Positions 946-21,853 of a DNA stretch of 21,853 nucleotides are shown here, piece after piece. Made by a program: the position numbers and the translations under genes. This DNA comes from a virus: the IMG/VR virus record IMGVR_UViG_3300049846_000481, positions 1 to 21,853 of that record; one strand, written 5' to 3'. Below the pieces are notes generated by a model, which ran no database searches, was not told the DNA's origin, and saw only the letters and a program-made list of their open reading frames with translations. How positions within the stretch are numbered: position 1 is the stretch's first letter; every line of letters starts with the position of its first letter.

Positions 946-1845
946 ATGAAAACCTTTAAGCATTTTATAACAGAAGGTGCTATTGATAAATTATTTGCAT
1001 TTTCGCAAGATTTATCGATGGCCCTTAAAAATGCCAAAGTCGAAATAAAAAAATCAATAGTAAACTTTACAGAGGATCCGAATAATCACATATCAGGAAA
1101 ATTTGAACAATTAAAACATGATATTGAATTTTCACTTAAAGATGAAATAAAACCATTAATCGGCAAATATAAATTTGATTCATATATTAATGACATAATT
1201 TTTGTATTTAACAACACACCAAGTGGTGCCCATTTTGATTCCAATTCAAAAGCAATTGTTGTTTTTTTAAAAAATGTGGAAAAATTAGATTTAGATAATC
1301 AAAATTCACATTATGAATACAATAGAATTTACAGTAATATTATCCATGAAATGATACATGCGTTTTCTATAAAATTATTGAATAAAAATAAAAATTATCT
1401 AAAACCATCTCCCGCAAGTACATCAATTCAAACTGCAACAAATTATGTAGAATATGCACTACAAACAATAGAATTTGAAGCACAAATTGTTGGATATGCA
1501 TTCTTATTTGCAAAATATTTTAATACAACCGAAAAGATGTTAAGATATTTTGATGATATTAAGAAAATTGCTATAGAATTTTCAAATGATAGAGATTTTC
1601 AACGTGAAGGTTATATCGACATTGAGCAAATCACCACAAGGATTTCCCAATTAACCAGAGAATACAATTTACGAGAAATGGCACCTGGATACATTTATGC
1701 AATTTGCGTATTGTTATCAAAAAGAAAATCTGAACCATATACTAGGCCATTAGAACGTGTTTTAAATTGGATCAAAAAACTTATATCTTATCACAAAAAG
1801 ATAAAGATATTCGAAAGAGAGGCCAATAGGAGAAGTAATATATAA
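946..1845 (+). CDS. Putative capsid-targeted zinc metallopeptidase-like protein
   Basis: A 299-residue protein starting one base after the fibre stop. Residues 1-10, MKTFKHFITE followed by G, closely match the capsid-targeting peptide of T4 internal proteins (MKTYQEFIAE) and end in I-T-E|G, a good fit to the (I/L)-x-E site of prohead protease gp21. Residues 134-138 are HEMIH, an HExxH zinc-protease motif inside a hydrophobic helix (IIHEMIHAF), and Glu176 or Glu178 in TIEFEAQ lies at a spacing suitable for a third zinc ligand in a gluzincin-like fold. The remainder is Lys/Asn-rich, with a basic tail. No signal peptide or membrane segment is visible. Inference: a protein packaged in the head, trimmed at residue 10 and injected with the DNA, possibly cutting a host protein. 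The HExxH motif could be fortuitous, and no named family is recognised. Confidence 0.72.
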   Translation: MKTFKHFITEGAIDKLFAFSQDLSMALKNAKVEIKKSIVNFTEDPNNHISGKFEQLKHDIEFSLKDEIKPLIGKYKFDSYINDIIFVFNNTPSGAHFDSNSKAIVVFLKNVEKLDLDNQNSHYEYNRIYSNIIHEMIHAFSIKLLNKNKNYLKPSPASTSIQTATNYVEYALQTIEFEAQIVGYAFLFAKYFNTTEKMLRYFDDIKKIAIEFSNDRDFQREGYIDIEQITTRISQLTREYNLREMAPGYIYAICVLLSKRKSEPYTRPLERVLNWIKKLISYHKKIKIFEREANRRSNI

Positions 1846-1850
1846 ATAAT
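1841..1850 (+). promoter_or_regulatory. T4-type late promoter box TATAAATAAT
   Basis: Exact match to the T4 late promoter -10 element TATAAATA at 1841-1848. It overlaps the TAA stop of the upstream gene (1843-1845) and lies 29 bases before the ATG at 1878. In T4 this element is read by the gp55 late sigma factor with gp33 and the gp45 clamp; whether this phage encodes them is not visible here. Confidence 0.75.
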
Positions 1851-1877
1851 ATATAAACTATAATAGATCATTTTTAT

Positions 1878-3338
1878 ATGAAAACCTTTAATTTGTGGCT
1901 ATCAGAATCAGTTTCATCTAATAATATAGATGCAATCAATAAAATTGTACTTCAATATCTTTCAAGAAAAGTTGGAACAAAATTTTATGCGTATCCTGGT
2001 GTTGAACAATTTACTAATTCAACAAGCAGGGGATATGGAGTAAGATATTTTTATAAAAATAAGAGCATTAGATTTAATTGGAAAGGCACAAACATCACAT
2101 CATTTACTCTCGATAGCGTAGATCTTTGGAATGGAACATCAAGAGACCCAAATTGGCATGTTGAATTTGATGATCAGGTGAGTCTTGTGAAAATACTACC
2201 AATGATAGTTGATTTAATTAAAAGACCTATAAAATCCGAAGAAACCTTTTCCTTTATACCAGATCAAAATATAAACACATTTAATGAGCATTTAATACTT
2301 GAGGGCCTTCGAGATGATCCATTTGATATTGTAATGGGTTACTTAAGCCCAAATACAAGGGTTCGACCAAATGAAATTGGTGATAAACACGGCAGGCCAT
2401 CATTTCTCGTAATACAACAAATTAGAACTCTATATCCAAATCTTTTTCAAAAAGAAGGTGTGGCTATCATGTTTGTTGGAACAAATAAAGACATCAAACA
2501 AATAGAAAATAACAAAGGATCAATTATAGGTTCTATAGGTGGTGTCAAAGTTAAAATAGACAAGGGTGGTAAAAAAGAAAAATACGCAAAAACATCAGCA
2601 GAGGAAGAAGTTTCGGTTGGTGAAAATGAAATGTCAAAAATAACCTATGAGGAAAAATTAGAACATTTAAAGGTTTTGCTGAGACTTGTTGTGGGAGGAA
2701 ATTCTAACGCATTATTTGTTGCTGGAAGAGGTGGAACAGGCAAAACTCAAACGGTAGAATCTGAATTAGCTAAATTTGGATTAAGTGACGGCAACGGTTA
2801 TTTTAAAAATACTGGCACTGCAAGCCCAATGGGAATATACATGACACTTTATAATAATCAAGATGGGCTTATTTTATTTGATGATTGTGATAGTGCATTA
2901 GATACTGTAGAGGGTCGTAATTTAATTAAAGCTGCAACAGATACGAAAAAAATTAGGAAGATTTCATGGAACAAAAAGATTGTTGGTGATATTGATATAC
3001 CAAATTCCTTTGAATTTACGGGTCAAATTATATTCATTTCTAACCTTAGATTAAATAAACTAGATCCTGATGGTGCATTAAGAACACGAGGATTTGTAAT
3101 CGAGATCAACCCAACCGATATTGAACTTATAGATTACATGGCCAAAATTGCTAAAGACATTAGATTGGAAAATGATGCAAAATTAAAACAAGCAGATATA
3201 GACGAAGTTATTGGCTTGATCAAAAATAGCAAAAATAGAGATGATGTATCTTTACGGAAGTTGGTTAGAGGTCTTAATGTAAAAGCCGCATTGGGAAACG
3301 ATCCAATGGTTGCGGCTATTATTACCCTATACGCATAA
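1878..3338 (+). CDS. Putative capsid-targeted AAA+ ATPase with an internal second targeting/cleavage site
   Basis: A 486-residue protein. Residues 1-10 are MKTFNLWLSE followed by S: a capsid-targeting-like peptide ending in an L-S-E|S gp21-type site. Residues 11-130 form a domain I do not recognise. Residues 132-142, INTFNEHLILE followed by G, look like a second copy of the targeting peptide, ending in I-L-E|G. The C-terminal part is an AAA+ ATPase: Walker A GRGGTGKT at 283-290, Walker B LILFDDCDS at 331-339, sensor-1-like Asn389 in IIFISNL, and Arg402/Arg404 in ALRTRGF as arginine-finger candidates. A late promoter box lies just upstream. If both sites are cut in the prohead, fragments 11-142 and 143-486 would result. 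The ATPase call is firm; packaging and processing are inferred; the target of the ATPase is unknown. Confidence 0.8.
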   Translation: MKTFNLWLSESVSSNNIDAINKIVLQYLSRKVGTKFYAYPGVEQFTNSTSRGYGVRYFYKNKSIRFNWKGTNITSFTLDSVDLWNGTSRDPNWHVEFDDQVSLVKILPMIVDLIKRPIKSEETFSFIPDQNINTFNEHLILEGLRDDPFDIVMGYLSPNTRVRPNEIGDKHGRPSFLVIQQIRTLYPNLFQKEGVAIMFVGTNKDIKQIENNKGSIIGSIGGVKVKIDKGGKKEKYAKTSAEEEVSVGENEMSKITYEEKLEHLKVLLRLVVGGNSNALFVAGRGGTGKTQTVESELAKFGLSDGNGYFKNTGTASPMGIYMTLYNNQDGLILFDDCDSALDTVEGRNLIKAATDTKKIRKISWNKKIVGDIDIPNSFEFTGQIIFISNLRLNKLDPDGALRTRGFVIEINPTDIELIDYMAKIAKDIRLENDAKLKQADIDEVIGLIKNSKNRDDVSLRKLVRGLNVKAALGNDPMVAAIITLYA

Positions 3339-3355
3339 AAACAAAAAAGTTTAAA

Positions 3356-3997
3356 CTAATGTTTATGTGGAGTTGTGACCTTTGGATCTTCTTTTATTCT
3401 TCCATTTGTACACACCCAGCGTTTTGAAACATCTCGGACAACAAATTTATCTTTGTCACCAACTTTACATGGATGAACTTCACCCTTTGACGTTTCAATA
3501 TAAAACATCACCTGAATTGGTTGATGTTTGCGTAAATCCTGAAATTTAAATCCTGGCTTAAAATTGAACCTACCATATTTGTAACCGGGTAGTTGATTGC
3601 CCCTTGTTGTACTATAACTTTTATTTCTTTTGAGTGGAATATCGTTTCCATTTTTATCCAAAAGTTTAAGTCTAAGATGCTCAATTCTAATATCATCGGC
3701 TGCTACAGCCAATACCAATTCTGGCGAAGTATCAGATGTTGGTTTCCATAAACAATGTTGCACACCTCGACCATTTATATTCGTTCCCGGAGGATTATTA
3801 ATGTCAACTGGTGGTGATTCAACAATGGGTGGAACTTCAGGTTGGAACTCTTCATCATCATTATTACTAGGTTCTTCTTCAGTTTTAACTTCTTCGGTTT
3901 CGACTATTGGTTCTTCTTTATGTTGAATTTCTTCGCCTACAAATTTCCTTAATAGGTTTTCAATTACATTCAATACGGTTTTGAAAAAGTTTTTCAT
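3356..3997 (-). CDS. Unknown minus-strand protein with acidic/proline linker
   Basis: 213 residues, encoded against the surrounding late genes. Residues 1-25 (MKNFFKTVLNVIENLLRKFV) could form an amphipathic helix. Residues 26-75 are a strongly acidic, Pro-rich linker, probably disordered. Residues 76-205 form a basic, mixed alpha/beta-looking domain with three cysteines. The start at 3997 is supported by GAGG about seven bases upstream on the minus strand (near 4004-4009). It converges with the AAA+ gene (17 bases between stops) and diverges from gp13. I recognise no family. The opposite-strand frame at 3630-3926 is shorter and poorly supported, so the minus strand is preferred. Its orientation suggests a separately acquired gene, possibly expressed at another time from the late structural genes. 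Confidence 0.65.
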   Translation of the reverse strand: MKNFFKTVLNVIENLLRKFVGEEIQHKEEPIVETEEVKTEEEPSNNDDEEFQPEVPPIVESPPVDINNPPGTNINGRGVQHCLWKPTSDTSPELVLAVAADDIRIEHLRLKLLDKNGNDIPLKRNKSYSTTRGNQLPGYKYGRFNFKPGFKFQDLRKHQPIQVMFYIETSKGEVHPCKVGDKDKFVVRDVSKRWVCTNGRIKEDPKVTTPHKH

Positions 3998-4058
3998 GTT
4001 CTGGCCTCGATTTAAATATTTTCATTAACTATAGCACAAATTCTTTTAATTGTAAATA

Positions 4059-4066
4059 CATAAATA
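4059..4066 (+). promoter_or_regulatory. Late promoter-like box CATAAATA upstream of gp13
   Basis: Differs from TATAAATA by one base and ends 27 bases before the gp13 ATG at 4094, a spacing similar to the exact-match boxes. A GGGGA ribosome-binding stretch follows at 4083-4087. It sits in the divergent gap between gp13 and the minus-strand gene. Confidence 0.55.
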
Positions 4067-4093
4067 TATCAGAATATATATAGGGGATATTTA

Positions 4094-5068
4094 ATGTCTT
4101 TACCATCAACTCGTAGACAACTAAAAGATTGGGTTCTTAGAAGATTGGGCGCCCCGGTCATAGACATCAACATATCTTCGGATCAATGTGAGGATCGTTT
4201 GTGTGAAGCACTATCATATTTTATGCAATACCATAATGAGGGTGTAGAAGAAATATACCTAAAACATAAAGTTACTGCATCCACATTAAATTTTAGTGCT
4301 GCTGTAATTCCACAATTTCAAGATGGTGAGGTTATTGTGGGCTTAACATCTGGTGCGACTACGCAGTTTATAGACAAAGCCCAAAATAATTTATCTATAA
4401 GGGTTCAAAAAACCAGTACTAGCCCAACCTTTATTGCAGGAGAAACAGTAAGAGGACAAAACAGTTTAACTGTTGGTATATTGACTCCGACAAATTTTTA
4501 TATCCCTGGTGACATTGATAATCAATTTTTGCCATTAGGAAATGATATAATATCCATATCAAACATTTTATCTATAGATAATGGGTTTGGTGGTAATGGA
4601 ATATGGAACACAAAATATCAATTTGCCTTGAATAATTTACCAAATTTGGTTTCAACTGATATTGTTAGTTATGATATGTTTAAAAAGCACATGGCATTGC
4701 TGGACTTTGAATTAAATGCTCAACCCAATTTTAGGTTTAATCAAATTACAGAAAGAGTTTATATTGATGGTGAATGGGGAACACAAATAAAAGTTGATCA
4801 ATACATTATTATAAAATCATATAAAGCATTGAATCCGGCACAGTATCCAAAGGTATATGAGAATTATTTCTTGAGGCAATATGCATATTTACTATTCAAG
4901 ATGCAATGGGGGAATAATCTGAAGAAGTATGATGGAGTTGCTTTGATTGGTGGTGTTACCTTAAATGGTCAAAAAATATATGATGAGGCGTTGGATGAAA
5001 TGGCAAAACTTGAAGAAAGGTTACAAAAAGAATTTCAGTTGCCGATGGGATATATTTTTATGGGGTAA
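4094..5068 (+). CDS. 13: Neck protein, T4 gp13-like
   Basis: 324 residues (T4 gp13 is 309). The N-terminus, TRRQLKDWVLRRLGAPVIDI followed by SSDQCEDRLCEALSYFMQYH and EEIYLKHKVT, is the hallmark opening of T4-like gp13 neck proteins. Residues about 210-324 contain the conserved YIIIKSYKALNP, LRQYAYLLFKMQWG and GVTLNGQKIYDEA blocks. Role known from T4: with gp14 it forms the collar that closes the packaged head and accepts the finished tail. Residues about 72-132 hold a beta-rich insert (FQDGEVIVGLTSGATTQF, then FIAGETVRGQNS) similar to a segment in gp14 of this phage. The 3' end overlaps the convergent homing-endonuclease-like gene by 11 bases. The RBS GGGGA is strong. Confidence 0.92.
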   Translation: MSLPSTRRQLKDWVLRRLGAPVIDINISSDQCEDRLCEALSYFMQYHNEGVEEIYLKHKVTASTLNFSAAVIPQFQDGEVIVGLTSGATTQFIDKAQNNLSIRVQKTSTSPTFIAGETVRGQNSLTVGILTPTNFYIPGDIDNQFLPLGNDIISISNILSIDNGFGGNGIWNTKYQFALNNLPNLVSTDIVSYDMFKKHMALLDFELNAQPNFRFNQITERVYIDGEWGTQIKVDQYIIIKSYKALNPAQYPKVYENYFLRQYAYLLFKMQWGNNLKKYDGVALIGGVTLNGQKIYDEALDEMAKLEERLQKEFQLPMGYIFMG

Positions 5069-6551
5069 CGGTAAATTTCCATAAAAAATTACCGGCATCA
5101 TATACTCTATAGTATCCATTATTGTTTGCATTTTCCTCTTCTGTTAAGTTAGCATCAAAATTATCAAATATTTTTTCTTGTTTGTGCTTTTGTAGGGTTG
5201 TTCTACTCTTTCTTTCTGTTCCATTAATATAGAAAAAACCAGGCGAAGTCTGTCGAATTAATTGAAATCCATATATTTTGTATAGATTTCCCGTTGAAAT
5301 TCTACAATCAGAAAATGAATAAATGTCACCACAATAAGTATTGTTCTTAATATAGTATGACAACAGTTTACTAAATCCCCCTCGACATTGTGTGTGTATC
5401 TTATTTGCAAATCTGTAAATTTCAACACCCTTATCCTTCCCATATCTCATATCACCAATTGATATACAAGAGACAATTTCATCACCAAATACTAATGCTA
5501 TATGTTGAGATTTATTGTTTATCGCTCCTTGTAAATGATTGTTCCTATAGAAGGCATTGGCATCCTTTGCCTTAATTTGAACTATGTTACATTTTCTGGC
5601 ATCATATTTTTTATCAATAATTCCAACGTTGGCTAATATAATTGATTTGCAAATTTCAGGACTTTCTTCTAATTCATGTGTAAAAAGTTGGATAAGTTTT
5701 ATGCCTCTATGGATTGATATATTAAATTTATTTTGATGATACTTTTTATTAGTTCTAAATTTCGTAGAATGAAAGTAATCTCCATGAATTTCCAATCCAA
5801 CATTATATTCTTCATTGAAGAGATCAATTTCATATCTGTCTAATATTTTTCTTTTTTTTGACCAAGTTAGTTTTGTTGAATCTTCTAAAATTGATTTCCA
5901 CTTAATTTCATAAAATGACTCAAATTTTTTAAATTTAATATTGCTTCTAGTTAAAATGTTTCTCAAGTATGTACGATTATAATTTGGAAATACTTGTGAT
6001 AATTTTGCAATAGACAATTCTGTTTTAGCATTCTCTCGCATCCATTTGTTTAATTGAATTTTTCTTTGTGATAAATTACTTCTTTTACTCAATTGGCGCT
6101 TTTTATTGGTCTCTATACTAGCCATATTACATTTTGCGGAACAATAATCTGCATAACCAGCATTTCTTTTATTTGTTTTATTATAGTATTTTGTTGGAGA
6201 TTTACAAGTTTTGCAAAATTTTTGTTCATGTATAATTCTATTGGATCTATAAATCTCCCGACCCTTTAATTTATTGAAACAAGATATACTACATGTTTTT
6301 CGATATCCATATCCATCTTCATTGCTCACCCAACCAAATTTAACCTCATTATTACAATTTGGACATAACGGAATAGAATTGATATTATTAAGTATGACAT
6401 ATACCCTTTCTTGTAGAGTTGCCGTATCTGGTAAGAATGTGGTGTGGTTTTTAATATTATCTAGTAATGCGGCATAATAGGATTTGCGGTGCAATCCTGC
6501 TAATTTGGTAGATTTTAAAATACATTGCAATGAGTTTAGATCATCCTTCAT
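5058..6551 (-). CDS. Homing endonuclease-like protein with Vsr/EDxHD-type nuclease region
   Basis: 497 residues, convergent with gp13. Two Cys4 zinc-binding clusters occur near the N-terminus: Cys63, Cys66, Cys87, Cys91 and Cys113, Cys116, Cys137, Cys141. A basic stretch (145-170) and a helix-turn-helix-like segment (178-200) follow. Residues 240-295 (YEIDLFNEEYNVGLEIHGDYFHS, YHQNKF, GIKLIQLF, with Asp243, Glu254, Asp258, His261, His272) resemble the Vsr-like nuclease core of phage free-standing homing endonucleases such as the I-Bth0305I type. The C-terminal 190 residues match the tail of the second such gene in this window (14286-15980), including N-x-x-HLQG, a gly-rich GGFSKLL block and LQKHK. 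It has no visible structural role and is probably a selfish element spreading into the gp13 region. All core parts are present, so it looks intact; activity is unproven. Confidence 0.78.
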   Translation of the reverse strand: MKDDLNSLQCILKSTKLAGLHRKSYYAALLDNIKNHTTFLPDTATLQERVYVILNNINSIPLCPNCNNEVKFGWVSNEDGYGYRKTCSISCFNKLKGREIYRSNRIIHEQKFCKTCKSPTKYYNKTNKRNAGYADYCSAKCNMASIETNKKRQLSKRSNLSQRKIQLNKWMRENAKTELSIAKLSQVFPNYNRTYLRNILTRSNIKFKKFESFYEIKWKSILEDSTKLTWSKKRKILDRYEIDLFNEEYNVGLEIHGDYFHSTKFRTNKKYHQNKFNISIHRGIKLIQLFTHELEESPEICKSIILANVGIIDKKYDARKCNIVQIKAKDANAFYRNNHLQGAINNKSQHIALVFGDEIVSCISIGDMRYGKDKGVEIYRFANKIHTQCRGGFSKLLSYYIKNNTYCGDIYSFSDCRISTGNLYKIYGFQLIRQTSPGFFYINGTERKSRTTLQKHKQEKIFDNFDANLTEEENANNNGYYRVYDAGNFLWKFTVTP

Positions 6552-6564
6552 AATTTACATTTAA

Positions 6565-6574
6565 CATAAATAAT
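6565..6574 (+). promoter_or_regulatory. Late promoter-like box CATAAATAAT
   Basis: CATAAATA at 6565-6572 is one base from the T4 late consensus and ends 31 bases before the ATG at 6604. It lies in the 52-base gap between the divergent homing-endonuclease-like gene and the accessory gene, and it is oriented towards the latter. Confidence 0.5.
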
Positions 6575-6603
6575 TGAAATAGTCAAGGTATTATATTTAA
6601 CTT

Positions 6604-7659
6604 ATGAAATCATTCAAACAATTTATAAATGAAAAGAGACTATACACCAATAGAACCGAATTTGTTCGACTTGTTGGTACTTCACAATGGAAACTAATAT
6701 TAGATCAAAAAGCAATATCAATTAGAAAATCATTAGTATCAAAGGTATTTAATAATGATGTTATAGTAACAGGTGCCCACATAACCGAACCAACAGAAGA
6801 AATGTACAATAGACTATCATCAATACAAGGAAAAAATAGTTCTATATCAACCACACTAACGGTTCATGGTAATACGATTGAACGTGGAATTGCAACAAAA
6901 GGTGGTGCGGTTTATATTGTATCGGGTACACCTTTAATAGTTTCTCCAGAAGATGCATATACTGTTATGGATAAACAAGGAAATAGGTGGATCGCCAGAA
7001 ATACAATTTTTGCATTAGCATTAAAAAAGAAGTTAAATATTGAAAAAATTGATTATACTTTAGAAGTGTTAGGGCCAACTTTAGTAGAAACTATCAAAAG
7101 ATATCCCGAACTAGGTGAATTGATTCGTGAAAATCTAGATAACTTTAATGGAAAATCCGAAAGTGAAATCAATATTTTGGCTATGAAATTATCAAATTTA
7201 CTATATGAAGCACCACGATCTAATGTAGGTTACGGTATTGATTTGCAAAAGGTTAAATATAGTCTAATAAAATCATACTTTTTTTATGTGGAAAAACACA
7301 TTAAAAAGCATATGCAATTCTATCAAGATTTATTTTCAATAAAAAACATCAAAGATGTGAAAACTGATGATAAATCATTTGATAGAGAAGCACCAAATGA
7401 AATAGTACTATCAAATATTAAAATTGAGTATATTTTAATTTATGATAATATTGGCGATAAAAACACAATGGACAGTGATACGTGGGAAGTTGATGGTGAG
7501 GATCTTCAAAATATAATATTAGGTAAAACTCCATGGGATGAAATAACCAATGCATTAGAAGATGATAATATGAGATATGATTTTTATGATGATTTGGATG
7601 AAATGGAAAAAATGGCAAATGATATGATCAAAGATTCAAATAAAAATGTCACAAATTAA
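6604..7659 (+). CDS. Putative capsid-targeted accessory protein, possibly ADP-ribosyltransferase-like
   Basis: 351 residues. Residues 1-10, MKSFKQFINE followed by K, resemble the T4 internal-protein capsid-targeting peptide and end in I-N-E; the Lys after the cut is less typical than Ala, Gly or Ser. Residues 67-135 contain LSSIQGKNSSISTT, then IERGIATKGGAVYIVSGTP and DKQGNRWI; residues 261-275 contain REAPNEIVLSNIKIE. The S-S-I-S-T-T strand and a later E-x-x-x-E followed by a beta strand recall the R-S-E class of ADP-ribosyltransferases (to which T4 Alt, ModA and ModB belong), but the match is weak and a clear catalytic Arg is not assigned. The C-terminus (285-345) is very acidic. The gene overlaps the next one by 14 bases. 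Coding status and the N-terminal peptide are well supported; the enzyme suggestion is only a hypothesis. Confidence 0.6.
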   Translation: MKSFKQFINEKRLYTNRTEFVRLVGTSQWKLILDQKAISIRKSLVSKVFNNDVIVTGAHITEPTEEMYNRLSSIQGKNSSISTTLTVHGNTIERGIATKGGAVYIVSGTPLIVSPEDAYTVMDKQGNRWIARNTIFALALKKKLNIEKIDYTLEVLGPTLVETIKRYPELGELIRENLDNFNGKSESEINILAMKLSNLLYEAPRSNVGYGIDLQKVKYSLIKSYFFYVEKHIKKHMQFYQDLFSIKNIKDVKTDDKSFDREAPNEIVLSNIKIEYILIYDNIGDKNTMDSDTWEVDGEDLQNIILGKTPWDEITNALEDDNMRYDFYDDLDEMEKMANDMIKDSNKNVTN

Positions 7660-8317
7660 AAGTTTCAAAGAATTTTTAAAGTCTAGATCTGTTACATTTG
7701 TTGATATAGATGAAACTCTATTCAGAACATTTGCAAAAATTAAAGTAATAAAAAACGGAAAAATCGTAGCATCTTTAAACAATACGGAATTTAATACATA
7801 TCAATTAGAGGATGGTGAATCATTTGATTTTGGTGAATTTAGAAATTCTGAACTATTTAAGCGCACATCAATACCAATTCAAACAACAATATCACTATTA
7901 AATCGGATTCAAAGAAGTGCAAAACAAAGAAATTCACCAATATACTTACTTACGGCCAGAGCTGATTTTGATAATAAAGATTCCTTATTAGACTTTTTAA
8001 AAACACATAATATCGATGTAGGGCACCATCGAGATGGTAAGGTTCATATAATTAGAGCAGGTAATATAAGTTCAGGTAAAGGTTCAGCCGTAAACAAAAA
8101 AATCATGATTCATAAAATAATGCAAATGGGTAATTTTAATTATGTGGTTTTAGTTGATGATGATCTTAGTAATTTAAATGCTTTCCTTAGTGTTCCATAT
8201 GAATTGTCAAAAAAGACCATATTATCTTCTGGTGGTAAAATAATATTCCATGCAATAATAGTAGATCATGGAAATATGAAAGATTACCGAAAAGAGGTCA
8301 TATCAATCAATAAATAA
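7646..8317 (+). CDS. HAD-superfamily phosphatase-like protein
   Basis: 223 residues. Motif I is VDIDETLF (nucleophile Asp20, acid/base Asp22, Thr24), motif II is Thr103 in YLLTAR, a motif III Lys lies among Lys145-Lys152, and motif IV is the DDD at 171-173 after the hydrophobic strand VVLV. This order is the HAD phosphohydrolase fold; a polynucleotide 3'-phosphatase or small-molecule phosphatase are both possible. Residues 4-13 (IKSFKEFLKS) look like the capsid-targeting peptides of nearby genes but lack the terminal Glu for gp21 cleavage, so it may be a decayed or uncut version. The start overlaps the upstream gene's end by 14 bases (different frame), indicating translational coupling. The stop codon overlaps a late promoter-like box for gp14. 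Confidence 0.75.
   Translation: MSQIKSFKEFLKSRSVTFVDIDETLFRTFAKIKVIKNGKIVASLNNTEFNTYQLEDGESFDFGEFRNSELFKRTSIPIQTTISLLNRIQRSAKQRNSPIYLLTARADFDNKDSLLDFLKTHNIDVGHHRDGKVHIIRAGNISSGKGSAVNKKIMIHKIMQMGNFNYVVLVDDDLSNLNAFLSVPYELSKKTILSSGGKIIFHAIIVDHGNMKDYRKEVISINK
8309..8316 (+). promoter_or_regulatory. Late promoter-like box AATAAATA upstream of gp14
   Basis: One base from TATAAATA, overlapping the preceding TAA stop (8315-8317) and ending 28 bases before the gp14 ATG at 8345. The spacing agrees with the other boxes. Confidence 0.5.
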
Positions 8318-14285: not shown

Positions 14286-15980
14286 ATGGATAATATATTT
14301 GAATTCTATTTAACCAAGTCCGGTAGACTCGATAGCAACAAGATTAAAAAGTTTGCTAATAGTGATCAAAACCTAATTAATTTACAAAATAATCTGAATT
14401 GGTGTGAGTCCATATCAGAATTATATTACTGCTATCAAAATAATATAAACACTAGACCGCTATGTGGTCATTGTGATCAGGATGTAAAATATTATAATCC
14501 TAAAAGTGGATATGCCAAATTTTGCTCTAAAGTCTGTACATCCAGATCAGATCTAACTATACTTACAAAGTTAGAAAAGCGAAAATCTAAACAAGTTACA
14601 GATTTATCTGCATATAAATTGGAATTTCCATGGATCACCACAACATCCGAGGGTAAATATTGCAAACAACATCATATAGTAACACAACCTGAATGTTTTT
14701 GTGGAAATAAAATAAAATTTATTATTGGTCACAATTATCCAAAAAGGTGTTCTTATTCCTGTGCAAATAAACAAGATGCATTATCTAAACTGGAGAAAAC
14801 AAAATTGACTAATTTAAAAAAATATGGAGTCGATAACTATGCAAAGTCCGATGAATGGAAAAATCGATATGGCGAAATACAAGAAAAAATAATCGAAACT
14901 TCAACTAGTAAATATGGTACAAGATCTTTTAATCAAAGAAAATGTAAAGATATAGACTTGACATATAATAAAGAATATTTACACCAAAAACACATAATCG
15001 AAAATATACCAGTATATGCTATAGCGGAAATGCACTCAACTAGTTCTTTCTATTTGGGGCAAAGAATGAAAAAAATGGGTATAACTATTAACGCTTTAAG
15101 TAAAACCTCATACAAAGAAGAATTAATAGCCAATTTTATTAAAAATGATTTAGGTGTCGAGGTTGAAAGGAATTGTTATGGTATATTGGACAATAAAAGA
15201 GAATTAGATTTAAAATATGGCAATTTTGCAATAGAACTTGATTCGTTATATTGGCATTCATATGATAAAAAAGAAACATGGTCTCAAATAAACAAACACC
15301 AACAAAAAAGTCTCGACTGCCATAAAATCGGAATAGATCTATATCACATATGGGATTATGAGTGGAAAAACAAAAGAACTAGAGAAATATGGAAGTCAAT
15401 GATTAGATATAAATTAGCAGTCAATTCTATAAAAAGAGTTTTTGCGAGAAAGTGTTTGGTTAAAGAAATTGATAAAAATTTAGCCAAAGAATTTTGTAAA
15501 GAAAATCATATACAAGCATCAACTGGGTGTGCAAAGGCTTATGGCCTATTTTATGAAAATCAATTACTTTCTGTTATGACATTTGGGATTCCAAGATTTA
15601 ATAAAAAATATCAATGGGAATTGTTAAGGTTTTGTACTCTTAAAAATCATATTGTAATAGGAGGTGCATCAAAATTACTTACCCACTTCGAAAGGGAAAA
15701 TAAACCAAAAAGTTTAATATCATATGCCAATATTAGATGGTCCAATGGAAATCTATATAAAACTCTGATGTTTACATACAAAGGGATAAGTAAACCTAGT
15801 TATTCATATACAGATAAGACCGGAACAAAAATATTAAGTAGAAATAAATGTCAAAAACATAAATTGTCACATATTTTAGATAATTTTGACGTAAACAAAA
15901 CAGAATATCAAAATATGTTTGAACATGGATACAGACGTTTCTGGGATTGTGGAAATTTCGTGTTTATAAAACACTACTAA
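14286..15980 (+). CDS. Homing endonuclease-like protein with NUMOD-like and Vsr/EDxHD-type regions
   Basis: 564 residues, inserted between gp18 and gp19. Cys clusters: Cys60, Cys63, Cys80, Cys84, and Cys137, Cys139, Cys155, Cys159. Residues 175-200 (LKKYGVDNYAKSDEWKNRYG) resemble the short DNA-binding repeats of phage homing endonucleases. Residues 305-360 (RELDLKYGNFAIELDSLYWHS, HQQKSLDCHKIGIDLYHIW, DYEW) carry the E-D-x-H pattern of the Vsr-like nuclease. The C-terminal region (RVFARKC, ENHIQASTGC, SVMTFGIPRFNKKYQWELLR, ISYANIRWSNGNLY) is a conserved domain shared with the gene at 5058-6551. It is separated by a terminator from gp18 and by tandem promoters from gp19, so it is insulated from the structural operon. 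Appears intact; probably a selfish element. Confidence 0.82.
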   Translation: MDNIFEFYLTKSGRLDSNKIKKFANSDQNLINLQNNLNWCESISELYYCYQNNINTRPLCGHCDQDVKYYNPKSGYAKFCSKVCTSRSDLTILTKLEKRKSKQVTDLSAYKLEFPWITTTSEGKYCKQHHIVTQPECFCGNKIKFIIGHNYPKRCSYSCANKQDALSKLEKTKLTNLKKYGVDNYAKSDEWKNRYGEIQEKIIETSTSKYGTRSFNQRKCKDIDLTYNKEYLHQKHIIENIPVYAIAEMHSTSSFYLGQRMKKMGITINALSKTSYKEELIANFIKNDLGVEVERNCYGILDNKRELDLKYGNFAIELDSLYWHSYDKKETWSQINKHQQKSLDCHKIGIDLYHIWDYEWKNKRTREIWKSMIRYKLAVNSIKRVFARKCLVKEIDKNLAKEFCKENHIQASTGCAKAYGLFYENQLLSVMTFGIPRFNKKYQWELLRFCTLKNHIVIGGASKLLTHFERENKPKSLISYANIRWSNGNLYKTLMFTYKGISKPSYSYTDKTGTKILSRNKCQKHKLSHILDNFDVNKTEYQNMFEHGYRRFWDCGNFVFIKHY

Positions 15981-18588: not shown

Positions 18589-18816
18589 ATGAATGTATTA
18601 GACCAATTAAAAGAAATTGTTAGTACCAAACAAAGGGCCAAAGTTACTTTTCAAAATGGTGCAAAATTAATGGTGGATACTTTTACCGCCAGCGCAATTC
18701 TATCGGCATATAACATGATGTCCGATCAAAACAAATCAAAATTTGAAAGGATGGTTAATAAAGGTCCTCAAAATTTTATGAAAATAATGGATCTATCATT
18801 AAGTAAAGGTGAATAA
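18589..18816 (+). CDS. Small protein in the gp67/gp68 (prohead core) position
   Basis: 75 residues from the ATG at 18589; an in-frame TTG at 18577 would add four residues, but the ATG has GGAAA (18579-18583) as a plausible RBS and is preferred. The sequence has VLDQLKEIVSTKQRAKVTFQ, then LMVDTFTASAILSAYNMMSD and KFERMVNKGPQNFMKIMDLS: mostly helical, with no catalytic motif. Small proteins with this FTASAIL-type core sit between portal and protease genes in many T4-like phages. T4 places the prohead core proteins gp67 and gp68 here, so a core or assembly role is plausible from position only; sequence similarity to T4 gp67 is not evident. It overlaps the gp21 start by one base (TAATG), indicating coupling. 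Confidence 0.75.
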   Translation: MNVLDQLKEIVSTKQRAKVTFQNGAKLMVDTFTASAILSAYNMMSDQNKSKFERMVNKGPQNFMKIMDLSLSKGE

Positions 18817-19478
18817 TGAAATTAATTAAAGAATTAATAGAGGACGTAAAAGTCCAAATAGTAGAAGGTAAAGAAAATTCCCCAAAATCTTATTTTATTG
18901 AGGGTGTGTTTTTACAATCTGAAGTTGGAAATAGAAATGGTAGAATTTATCCGCATGAAATATTGAAAAAAGAAGTTAATAGATATATTAACGAATCGGT
19001 TTCTAAGAATAGAGCATTGGGGGAACTTAATCATCCAGAAACACCAACGGTAAATCTTGACCGGGTTTCTCATATGATCACATCATTAAAGGAAGATGGT
19101 ACTAATTTTATAGGCCGGGCCAAAGTTTTAGATACTCCTATGGGGAAAATCGTCAAGGCTTTTATTGATGAGGGGGTTCAATTGGGTGTTTCGTCTCGTG
19201 GTATGGGCAGTTTACGAGAAATTGATGGTAACTTACAAGAAGTCCAAGATGACTATTATCTATCTACGGTTGATGTGGTTGCAGATCCTAGTGCACCTGA
19301 TGCTTTTGTTGAGGGGATATTGGAAGGAAAGGAGTGGGTTTGGAATAATGGAAAGATCATTGAAAGAAATGTAGCCCAATATAAAAAAGAATTAATAAAA
19401 AACACCAAGAAAAAGAGCATTAAAGAAGAAGTTGCCATTAGACTTTTTCAAGATTTTTTAAATAAAATATCCAAGTAA
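18816..19478 (+). CDS. 21: Prohead core protease, T4 gp21-like
   Basis: 220 residues (T4 gp21 is 212). Conserved pieces are FIEGVFLQSEVGNRNGRIYP, the catalytic His73 in GELNHPE, Ser126/Ser127 in LGVSSRG and the DVVADPSAP segment, as expected for the herpes-assemblin-like U9 family of serine proteases. In T4 this enzyme sits inside the prohead, digests the scaffold, trims capsid and internal proteins after (I/L)-x-E, and then destroys itself. Candidate self-cleavage sites are IVE|G at residues 15-18 and ILE|G at 168-171. It is the expected processor of the capsid-targeting peptides found on the accessory genes of this window. The start overlaps the preceding stop by one base. Confidence 0.95.
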   Translation: MKLIKELIEDVKVQIVEGKENSPKSYFIEGVFLQSEVGNRNGRIYPHEILKKEVNRYINESVSKNRALGELNHPETPTVNLDRVSHMITSLKEDGTNFIGRAKVLDTPMGKIVKAFIDEGVQLGVSSRGMGSLREIDGNLQEVQDDYYLSTVDVVADPSAPDAFVEGILEGKEWVWNNGKIIERNVAQYKKELIKNTKKKSIKEEVAIRLFQDFLNKISK

Positions 19479-20618: not shown

Positions 20619-21853
20619 ATGGCATTTAATAGATTTTTCACAAGAACCCGATGGGTGACACCTCCTGGTCCGGGTACACCAATCGATTATGAAAATCCAA
20701 TAACTCGTGGCTTAATTACATACCATTCTTATAATGGAACGGTAAACTTAATATATGATAAGGTAAACAATCAACCTATTGCAAATTTTAACGGTGCAAC
20801 CAGGGGTGCACTTATTACTAATACAAGATTGGCTGGGTTATTTGGTGTAGCCTTAACTGGTTCAGCAAATTTATATTGTGGTGGTATAAGTGACGTATTT
20901 TTTGCACCAAAAAATCTTGACTTTTTTAACAAATACCCAATCGGCGCATCACAAAGAAGTATTTCATTTTGGGTCAGGCCAACCACAACATCACTTAGAA
21001 ATATTATATCATATTCTTCAAATACTGCAACCGCTGGTGCAAAGTTTGATATTAGGAGCACAAACAATACTTTATTATTAGATTTTAATGGCCACACCCG
21101 GGTAACGGCTGCTTCAACTTTAAACATTAATACTTGGAGTCATGTTGTAGTTGTCGTCCCCGTTGGTGCTACAACCACTGCTAATGTATTGGTATATATT
21201 AATGGCATATTGAGAACATTAACAACTTCAACTGGTGCATCTATTGCACTAAACACACAGAATGCCGAATTGCAATATGGTGTAGCATATGACGGAACAA
21301 CAACCGATTGCAATATTGCAGAAATGGGTATTTGGAATAGGGCACTAAATCTAAATGAAATTATTACAATATATAATAGCCCATATTCAATATTAGTTGA
21401 ACCGGGTTCATTATTCAATAAATCAAAAATTAGTACAACTCTTAATGTTCAAAATATAACACCAACTGCAATTCCATCCCAAGAAGCATTTGGTTTACAC
21501 CAGTTAAACCTGACCATATATCCACAGACCATTGCAAGTGCTGAAGCATTTGGTTCTCATAAAATAAACCGTAATGTTAAGCCGCAGGACATTGCAAGTG
21601 CTGAAGCATTTGGTGTGCCCCAAATTATAAGAACATATCAAATATTACCAACAGGACCACCATCCACTGAAGCATTTGGTTCTCATAAAATAAACCGTAA
21701 TGTTAAGCCGCAGGCCATTGCAAGTGCTGAAGCATTTGGTTCTCATAAAATAAACCGTAATGTTAAGCCGCAGGCCATTGCAAGTGCTGAAGCATTTGGT
21801 TCTCATAAAATAAACCGTAATGTTAAGCCGCAGGCCATTGCAAGTGCTGAAGC
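20619..21853 (+). CDS. LamG-like (concanavalin A-like) protein with tandem SAEAFG repeats (3' end outside window)
   Basis: The frame is open from the ATG at 20619 to the window end: 411 codons, incomplete. Residues about 25-260 form a lectin-like LamG/concanavalin A-type domain: GLITYHSYNGT near the start, RSISFWVRP, NTWSHVVVVV, VLVYINGILR and the closing AEMGIWNRALNLNEI, which is a very typical LamG ending. From residue 285 come 20-residue repeats of the form I-A-S-A-E-A-F-G followed by a variable or conserved dozen residues (SHKINRNVKPQA in most copies). Family knowledge: such domains bind glycans or proteins, and SAEAFG repeats occur in phage and prophage surface proteins. Probably a virion surface adhesin or capsid fibre. 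It ends mid-repeat, so total length is unknown. Confidence 0.82.
   Translation, partial: MAFNRFFTRTRWVTPPGPGTPIDYENPITRGLITYHSYNGTVNLIYDKVNNQPIANFNGATRGALITNTRLAGLFGVALTGSANLYCGGISDVFFAPKNLDFFNKYPIGASQRSISFWVRPTTTSLRNIISYSSNTATAGAKFDIRSTNNTLLLDFNGHTRVTAASTLNINTWSHVVVVVPVGATTTANVLVYINGILRTLTTSTGASIALNTQNAELQYGVAYDGTTTDCNIAEMGIWNRALNLNEIITIYNSPYSILVEPGSLFNKSKISTTLNVQNITPTAIPSQEAFGLHQLNLTIYPQTIASAEAFGSHKINRNVKPQDIASAEAFGVPQIIRTYQILPTGPPSTEAFGSHKINRNVKPQAIASAEAFGSHKINRNVKPQAIASAEAFGSHKINRNVKPQAIASAE
21471..21853 (+). repeat. In-frame 60-base tandem repeats, running off the window end
   Basis: Units start at 21471, 21531, 21591, 21657, 21717, 21777 and 21837 (last one cut by the window end). Unit lengths are 60 bases except the third, which is 66. 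Units 1 and 3 are diverged; units 2, 4, 5 and 6 are nearly identical over GAAGCATTTGGTTCTCAT and the bases that follow, with one base change (GAC versus GCC near the unit end of unit 2) and a diverged first 12 bases in unit 4. Multiples of three keep the frame open. Confidence 0.93.

Follow-up and report, generated by a model that had tools for sequence, protein, structure and literature searches.

A modular N-terminal tag with a gp21-type cleavage site on three predicted internal head proteins of a T4-like phage

The IMG/VR record IMGVR_UViG_3300049846_000481, a 21,853-base fragment of a T4-like phage (the whole of it is referred to here as the window), encodes three proteins, P946, P1878 and P6604, that begin with variants of one ten-residue peptide (Table 1). 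This peptide is well supported as a modular capsid-targeting tag that ends in a site of the type cut by the prohead protease gp21. The support comes from its N-terminal position, its occurrence on dozens of unrelated bodies, the existence of orthologues with and without it, and the constraint on its Glu. It comes further from a cleavage context like that of gp23, from late-promoter boxes in front of two of the genes, from the place of P946 behind a tail-fibre-like gene, and from a tagged enzyme that others have found in virions of phage S-SM1. P946, P1878 and P6604 are probably internal head (cargo) proteins that carry the tag, are cut by gp21 and are injected, P1878 being cut twice. An earlier note on this DNA had proposed a modular cargo tag. 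The spread of the tag over unrelated bodies, the constraint on the Glu and the gp23-like context bore this out, whereas its summary of T4 IPI and its description of two of the three bodies as enzyme-like did not hold.

Tagged genes, gp21 and late-promoter boxes in the window

A check of the open reading frames (ORFs) confirmed the three genes and the starts given for them in the earlier note, and comparisons of the bodies found no relation among them, as it had also claimed. All three starts follow the capsid-targeting pattern of T4-type internal head proteins, MK[TS][FY]xx[FYW][LI]xE, and end in the predicted cleavage sites I-T-E/G, L-S-E/S and I-N-E/K (a slash marks the scissile bond, here and below), in agreement with the L/I-x-E rule for gp21 cleavage (PMC9026906). 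The context is that of the gp23 site in relatives, [LI][STN]E/[AST]; in the nearest long relative, G001 (156,877 bases, gp21 75% identical to that of the window), gp23 has MLNE/APA at the expected place. By residue composition, 6e-6 to 2.5e-5 starts of the form MK[TS]F..[FW][LI].E were expected in the 21 window genes. When residues 2–20 were shuffled 200,000 times, one such start arose in 12 shuffles and two starts in none.

The gp21 gene, which had been claimed to lie in the window, was recovered there as a Peptidase_S77 member, and the tag thus occurs in the same genome as the protease, as in T4-type internal head proteins. The late genes were present in the order gp13 to gp21, with a portal protein nearest to cyanophage gp20 (approximately 46% identity). 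The window gp21 begins MKLIKELIE/D and has an L-I-E of its own at residues 7–9. At three other loci (L064, 4727–5347 +; L069; L074), gp21 itself was observed to begin tag-like, with MGFVEYITE/D. P946, P1878 and P6604 were all missing from the stretch of G001 that matches the window and were therefore considered accessory.

The sequence NATAAATA, the T4 late-promoter element, occurred 10 times on the plus strand of the window and once on the minus strand. Nine of the 10 were located 27–52 nt upstream of a gene, which was reached by 0 of 20,000 random placements, and one box each preceded P1878, P6604, gp13, gp14, gp18, gp19 and gp20. A search with TATAAATA allowing one mismatch gave no overall enrichment, so that only the placement of NATAAATA is informative. 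P946 starts 1 nt past the stop of the tail-fibre-like gene. This placement and the boxes at 1841 and 6565 would be compatible with late expression of the tagged genes alongside the head genes.

The description enzyme-like was appropriate for P1878, which contains an AAA+ part, but neither for P946, which has an HEMIH motif and no family match, nor for P6604. No relatives of P946 or P6604 were found in Pfam, PHROGs, the phage collection, IMG/VR or the PDB; the PDB sequence search with both proteins returned nothing significant. The AlphaFold2 model of P946 from its single sequence had a predicted local distance difference test score (pLDDT) of 48 and was too poor for use. Because such a model does not allow a test for a protease fold, the HExxH of P946 stays a motif only.

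Table 1. Tagged genes, predicted gp21 sites and associated features in the window
Feature	Position	Strand	Description	Basis or remark
P946	946..1845	+	299 aa, tagged, HEMIH (HExxH) motif, orphan	ORF; no relatives found
P946 tag	946..975	+	MKTFKHFITE; predicted gp21 cut after E10, before G11	L/I-x-E match, gp23-site context of relatives
Late-promoter-like box	1841..1848	+	TATAAATA	29 nt upstream of P1878
P1878	1878..3338	+	486 aa: tag, N-terminal alpha/beta domain, linker, NrdC.10-like AAA+ ATPase	phrog_1250
P1878 tag	1878..1907	+	MKTFNLWLSE; predicted gp21 cut after E10, before S11	E10 in aligned family
P1878 E142 codon	2301..2303	+	LILE/G; predicted second gp21 site, within the linker joining N-domain to AAA+ part	E142 in aligned family
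Late-promoter-like box	6565..6572	+	CATAAATA	31 nt upstream of P6604
P6604	6604..7659	+	351 aa, tagged orphan
P6604 tag	6604..6633	+	MKSFKQFINE; predicted gp21 cut after E10, before K11
HAD-type protein	7646..8317	+	tag core without Glu (MSQIKSFKEFLKS)	overlaps end of P6604; not in earlier note
gp21 prohead protease	18816..19478	+		PF03420 (Peptidase_S77) 3.9e-43; phrog_207 5.9e-79

Two predicted gp21 sites in the P1878 family

Residues 203–463 of P1878 matched phrog_1250 (3.3e-35), the AAA+ family of T4 NrdC.10, and tblastn found this C-terminal part in more than 1200 phage records. A fold search with P1878 returned generic AAA+ matches only. The likeness to NrdC.10 is confined to the AAA+ part: in T4-like isolates, the proteins of NrdC.10 type that were examined have approximately 320–340 aa, are untagged and match only the C-terminal half of P1878.

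In IMG/VR, relatives of P1878 were found at no fewer than 80 loci; most are full-length, and their identity to the window protein is 36–45%. Their starts vary (MSKLTEFKRYLTE/A, MGTMLEFKEYITE/E, MKSFKSYLKE/G, MKFSQYLYE/G), yet F-x-x-[YFW]-[LI]-x-E is retained by nearly all of them. Of 40 aligned sequences, 39 had the tag Glu (E10) and one was gapped at this position. A second Glu, E142, was invariant (40 of 40); it was nearly always preceded by [LI]-x and mostly followed by Ala, Ser or Gly. In a model built from 21 sequences, P1878 had a folded N-terminal domain (approximately residues 14–126) and an AAA+ core from approximately residue 257, with E142 in an otherwise variable, weakly predicted linker. 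The simplest reading of the alignment would be that E10 and E142 are two gp21 sites. Such a conserved second site is new relative to the literature we read.

Spread of the tag over phages and predicted cargo

It is established that T4 internal proteins with unrelated bodies have only the tag in common (PMC3012670, PMC12373910), and that gp21 cuts them after L/I-x-E and they are injected (PMC3012670, PMC5694885, PMC9026906, PMC12373910). The start MKTYQEFIAE, attributed in the earlier note to IPI–III of T4, was found in IPII and IPIII (MKTYQEFIAE/A), but IPI has MKTFKEFTSTTTPVSTITE/A. In IPI the core is MKTFKEF and gp21 likely cuts further in, at ITE/A (residue 19); the targeting core and the cut site can thus lie at a distance from each other. 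IPI, IPII and IPIII are anti-GmrSD inhibitors. Three T4 genes matched the tag pattern: ipII, ipIII and 61.1. The gp61.1 protein (AF158101 18966–19130; L205:667–831 −) has 54 aa and starts MKTFKEFIKE/D; judged by this start, it may be an unrecognised internal protein.

Scanning of 17 records with a similar pattern gave 31 forward matches, compared with 2 for the reversed control. The single match in the whole S-SM1 genome was SSM1_190 (MKKFSAFLNE/AERSFAAK), a cytidylyltransferase of cluster T4-GC190, and the T4-GC190 cytidylyltransferase was detected in purified S-SM1 virions by mass spectrometry (Sullivan et al., PMC3037559). The cytidylyltransferase of Syn9 (gp184) carries the same tag, MKKFSAFL[NS]E/AERS, whereas the P-HM2 homologue has none and begins directly at the catalytic core. 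Tag and body are therefore separable, as they are in the HAD-type variants described below. In Vibrio phage D479, a hypothetical protein of approximately 104 aa (L207:917–1231 +) was observed to start MKTFDQFITE/A; the tag thus extends beyond cyanophage-like and enterobacterial relatives.

IMG/VR was searched with one codon version of MKSFKxx[FY][LI]xE, and with the Glu codon changed to Lys as the control. The tag was found in at least 120 stretches, compared with 12 for the Lys control in the whole collection (ratio of at least 10). Several of the control matches look like decayed tags on T4-like phages, and the control therefore overstates chance. Of the 120 stretches listed (average 9 kb), 75 contained a T4-type core gene. 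Among the matches listed, to which the following counts refer, 119 ORFs of at least 60 aa carried the tag, with few exceptions close to the ORF start. In these, P1' (the residue that follows the cut) was Ser in 57 and Ala in 16, and P2 was Thr or Ser in 61. Stricter clustering grouped the 119 into 39 body clusters; a first clustering (32 clusters) had over-merged unrelated proteins and was rejected. One of the over-merged groups in that first clustering was the 24-member cluster holding the SAM-lyase match; two representatives truly match the SAM-lyase family. The largest tagged cluster has 33 members, and its representative matched phrog_14802, 'virion structural protein'.

The tag was also found on DUF6267, DUF5824, cytidylyltransferase, DnaJ-domain, adenylate kinase, ADP-ribosyltransferase-domain, SAM-lyase-family and Acb1 proteins, with enzyme activities assigned by family name only. 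Orthologous bodies occurred both tagged and untagged; the DUF6267 proteins of P-HM2, Syn9 and S-SM1 are untagged, while other DUF6267 proteins are tagged. In the Acb1 (anti-CBASS) protein of locus L292 (9529–10032 +), both HxT motifs are kept and the conserved core begins shortly after the end of the tag. The gene is located between gp23 and gp3; the same cluster includes gp19–gp23 and a P1878 relative in which the tag is incomplete. T4 Acb1 (57B), encoded next to ipI, starts MMEFKDFSTG and has no full tag. At L232, a tagged SAM-lyase-family gene directly follows gp16.

The HAD-type protein of G001 has the same Glu-less tag core as that of the window, and full tags were present on an HAD homologue at L188 (MLSFKTYLSE/A) and on a similar protein at L235 (MKSFKDYLIE/E). 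The L188 gene (5982–6926 +) was observed to encode cupin and HAD domains in one frame, with two tandem tag-like stretches between them, KSFKKFTVE/G followed by MLSFKTYLSE/A. This arrangement suggests a fused cargo protein that would be cut by gp21. At the two cyanophage loci examined, no fused tag-bearing polyproteins were found.

Elsewhere in the window, two mutually related proteins (E 1.7e-27) are encoded at 5058–6551 (−) and 14286–15980 (+). They have zinc-ribbon-like Cys pairs and resemble free-standing homing endonucleases. Both genes are missing from the matching stretch of G001, and the one at 14286 has no NATAAATA box. An ORF at 20619–21851 starts LamG-like and carries at its C-terminus a tandem repeat, AFGSHKINRNVKPQAIASAE, that continues past the window end. 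PADLOC gave no match.

Predicted cargo role and alternative readings

As internal head proteins, P946, P1878 and P6604 would bind the prohead core during head building through their first ten residues, with the core F-x-x-[FYW]-[LI]-x-E. Cleavage by gp21 after the tag Glu would leave the body in the head with the DNA, and the body would be injected with the DNA at infection. A further cut after E142 would free the N-terminal domain of P1878 from its AAA+ part.

The three proteins resemble T4 IPII and IPIII in the N-terminal tag, the L/I-x-E rule, the unrelated bodies behind one tag and the gp21 gene in the genome. They differ from IPI–III in size (bodies of 299–486 aa, compared with precursors of 95–193 aa), in that P1878 combines an AAA+ ATPase with a second predicted cut by gp21, and in that their bodies have no detected relation to IPI–III and their presence in the virion is a prediction. 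T4 Alt, a packaged and injected ADP-ribosyltransferase, is likewise a full-size enzyme borne in the head and a substrate of gp21 (PMC9026906, PMC5694885); no sequence relation to it was shown, and the tagged ADP-ribosyltransferase domain occurs in IMG/VR, not in the window. SSM1_190 and Syn9 gp184 also combine the tag with a full-size enzyme of a T4-like phage, but their body is unrelated to the window proteins. The ejection proteins of the giant phages phiKZ and SPN3US are head proteins with propeptides that a gp21 homologue cleaves after Glu (PMC5694885, PMC9026906). These propeptides differ in that they often exceed 100 residues, have an S/A-x-E motif in phiKZ and share no 10-residue tag.

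Several points weigh against the cargo interpretation. For the three proteins themselves, a place in the virion, a cut by gp21 and injection are predictions, and the detection in S-SM1 virions is no proof of a place inside the head or of cleavage. The constraint shown on the tag is that of the P1878 family, as P946 and P6604 have no relatives; P6604 has Lys at P1', a less usual residue there (8 of the 119 tagged IMG/VR proteins among the matches listed). The HAD-type protein of the window carries the tag core without the Glu, and the P1878 relative at L292 begins MSQLNE/A, with the aromatic part missing; some tags are therefore decayed or dispensable. The UvsW helicase of phage C48C1 (L196:19419–20918 +) starts MKDYSHFMVE/A, a loose match on a protein of replication and possibly a chance match or an exception.

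Targeting to the prohead core could be real and the proteins nevertheless be assembly or scaffold components rather than injected effectors. This would agree with the late-promoter boxes that P1878 and P6604 share with head genes, with the phrog_14802 match of the commonest tagged IMG/VR cluster among the matches listed, and with the tag-like start of gp21 itself in some relatives. We nevertheless consider it unlikely, as the bodies are accessory and lineage-specific, the three being missing from the matching stretch of G001, and several tagged bodies are by family host-facing or nucleotide enzymes (Acb1, SAM-lyase, ADP-ribosyltransferase, adenylate kinase). Less likely by a clear step is that the peptide acts as a helix by which the proteins dock on some other phage or host protein, with the Glu on the docking face and no role in packaging. 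The same tag is found on T4 IPII, IPIII and a virion-detected enzyme, the P2 and P1' preferences resemble those of a protease site, and the second conserved site of this type in P1878 has no aromatic core; a docking helix would, on the other hand, account for a short motif with spaced aromatic and aliphatic residues and for the HAD-type protein, which lacks the Glu but retains the hydrophobic core. Coincidence, or a relic of a start-region duplication with no present function, is hardly credible even for a short motif in an AT-rich genome, given the expectation of approximately 2e-5 in the window, and appears already contradicted by the constraint data (the Glu kept across the P1878 family at 36–45% identity, the Glu/Lys ratio of at least 10 in IMG/VR).

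As injected cargo, P946, P1878 and P6604 would act early on the host, which we infer by analogy with the T4 internal proteins and with the tagged Acb1, SAM-lyase-family and ADP-ribosyltransferase proteins; their role may be in anti-defence or host takeover. Aquatic T4-like phages might more generally run a cargo system in which a ten-residue tag, mobile between genes, loads a varying set of full-size enzymes, pre-emptive anti-immunity proteins such as Acb1 (against CBASS) and the SAM-lyase family among them; gp21 might split some of this cargo into separate domains once it is packaged, as predicted for P1878. For and against this proposal we see the scales as level. The sharing of the tag by T4 internal proteins being already known, what is new relative to the literature we read is the range of enzymes found behind the tag in environmental T4-like phages, Acb1 and SAM-lyase-family proteins included.

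Most genes of environmental T4-like phages are functionally uncharacterised. The tag marks predicted cargo in cyanophages and their freshwater relatives, and could serve in the search for injected phage proteins, as it indicates which gene products probably travel in the virion and reach the host ahead of phage gene expression. It makes a simple prediction for mass spectrometry, namely peptides from residue 11. The tag would tie known anti-immunity enzymes to pre-emptive delivery, and it yields a list of uncharacterised proteins as candidate effectors of the first minute of infection.

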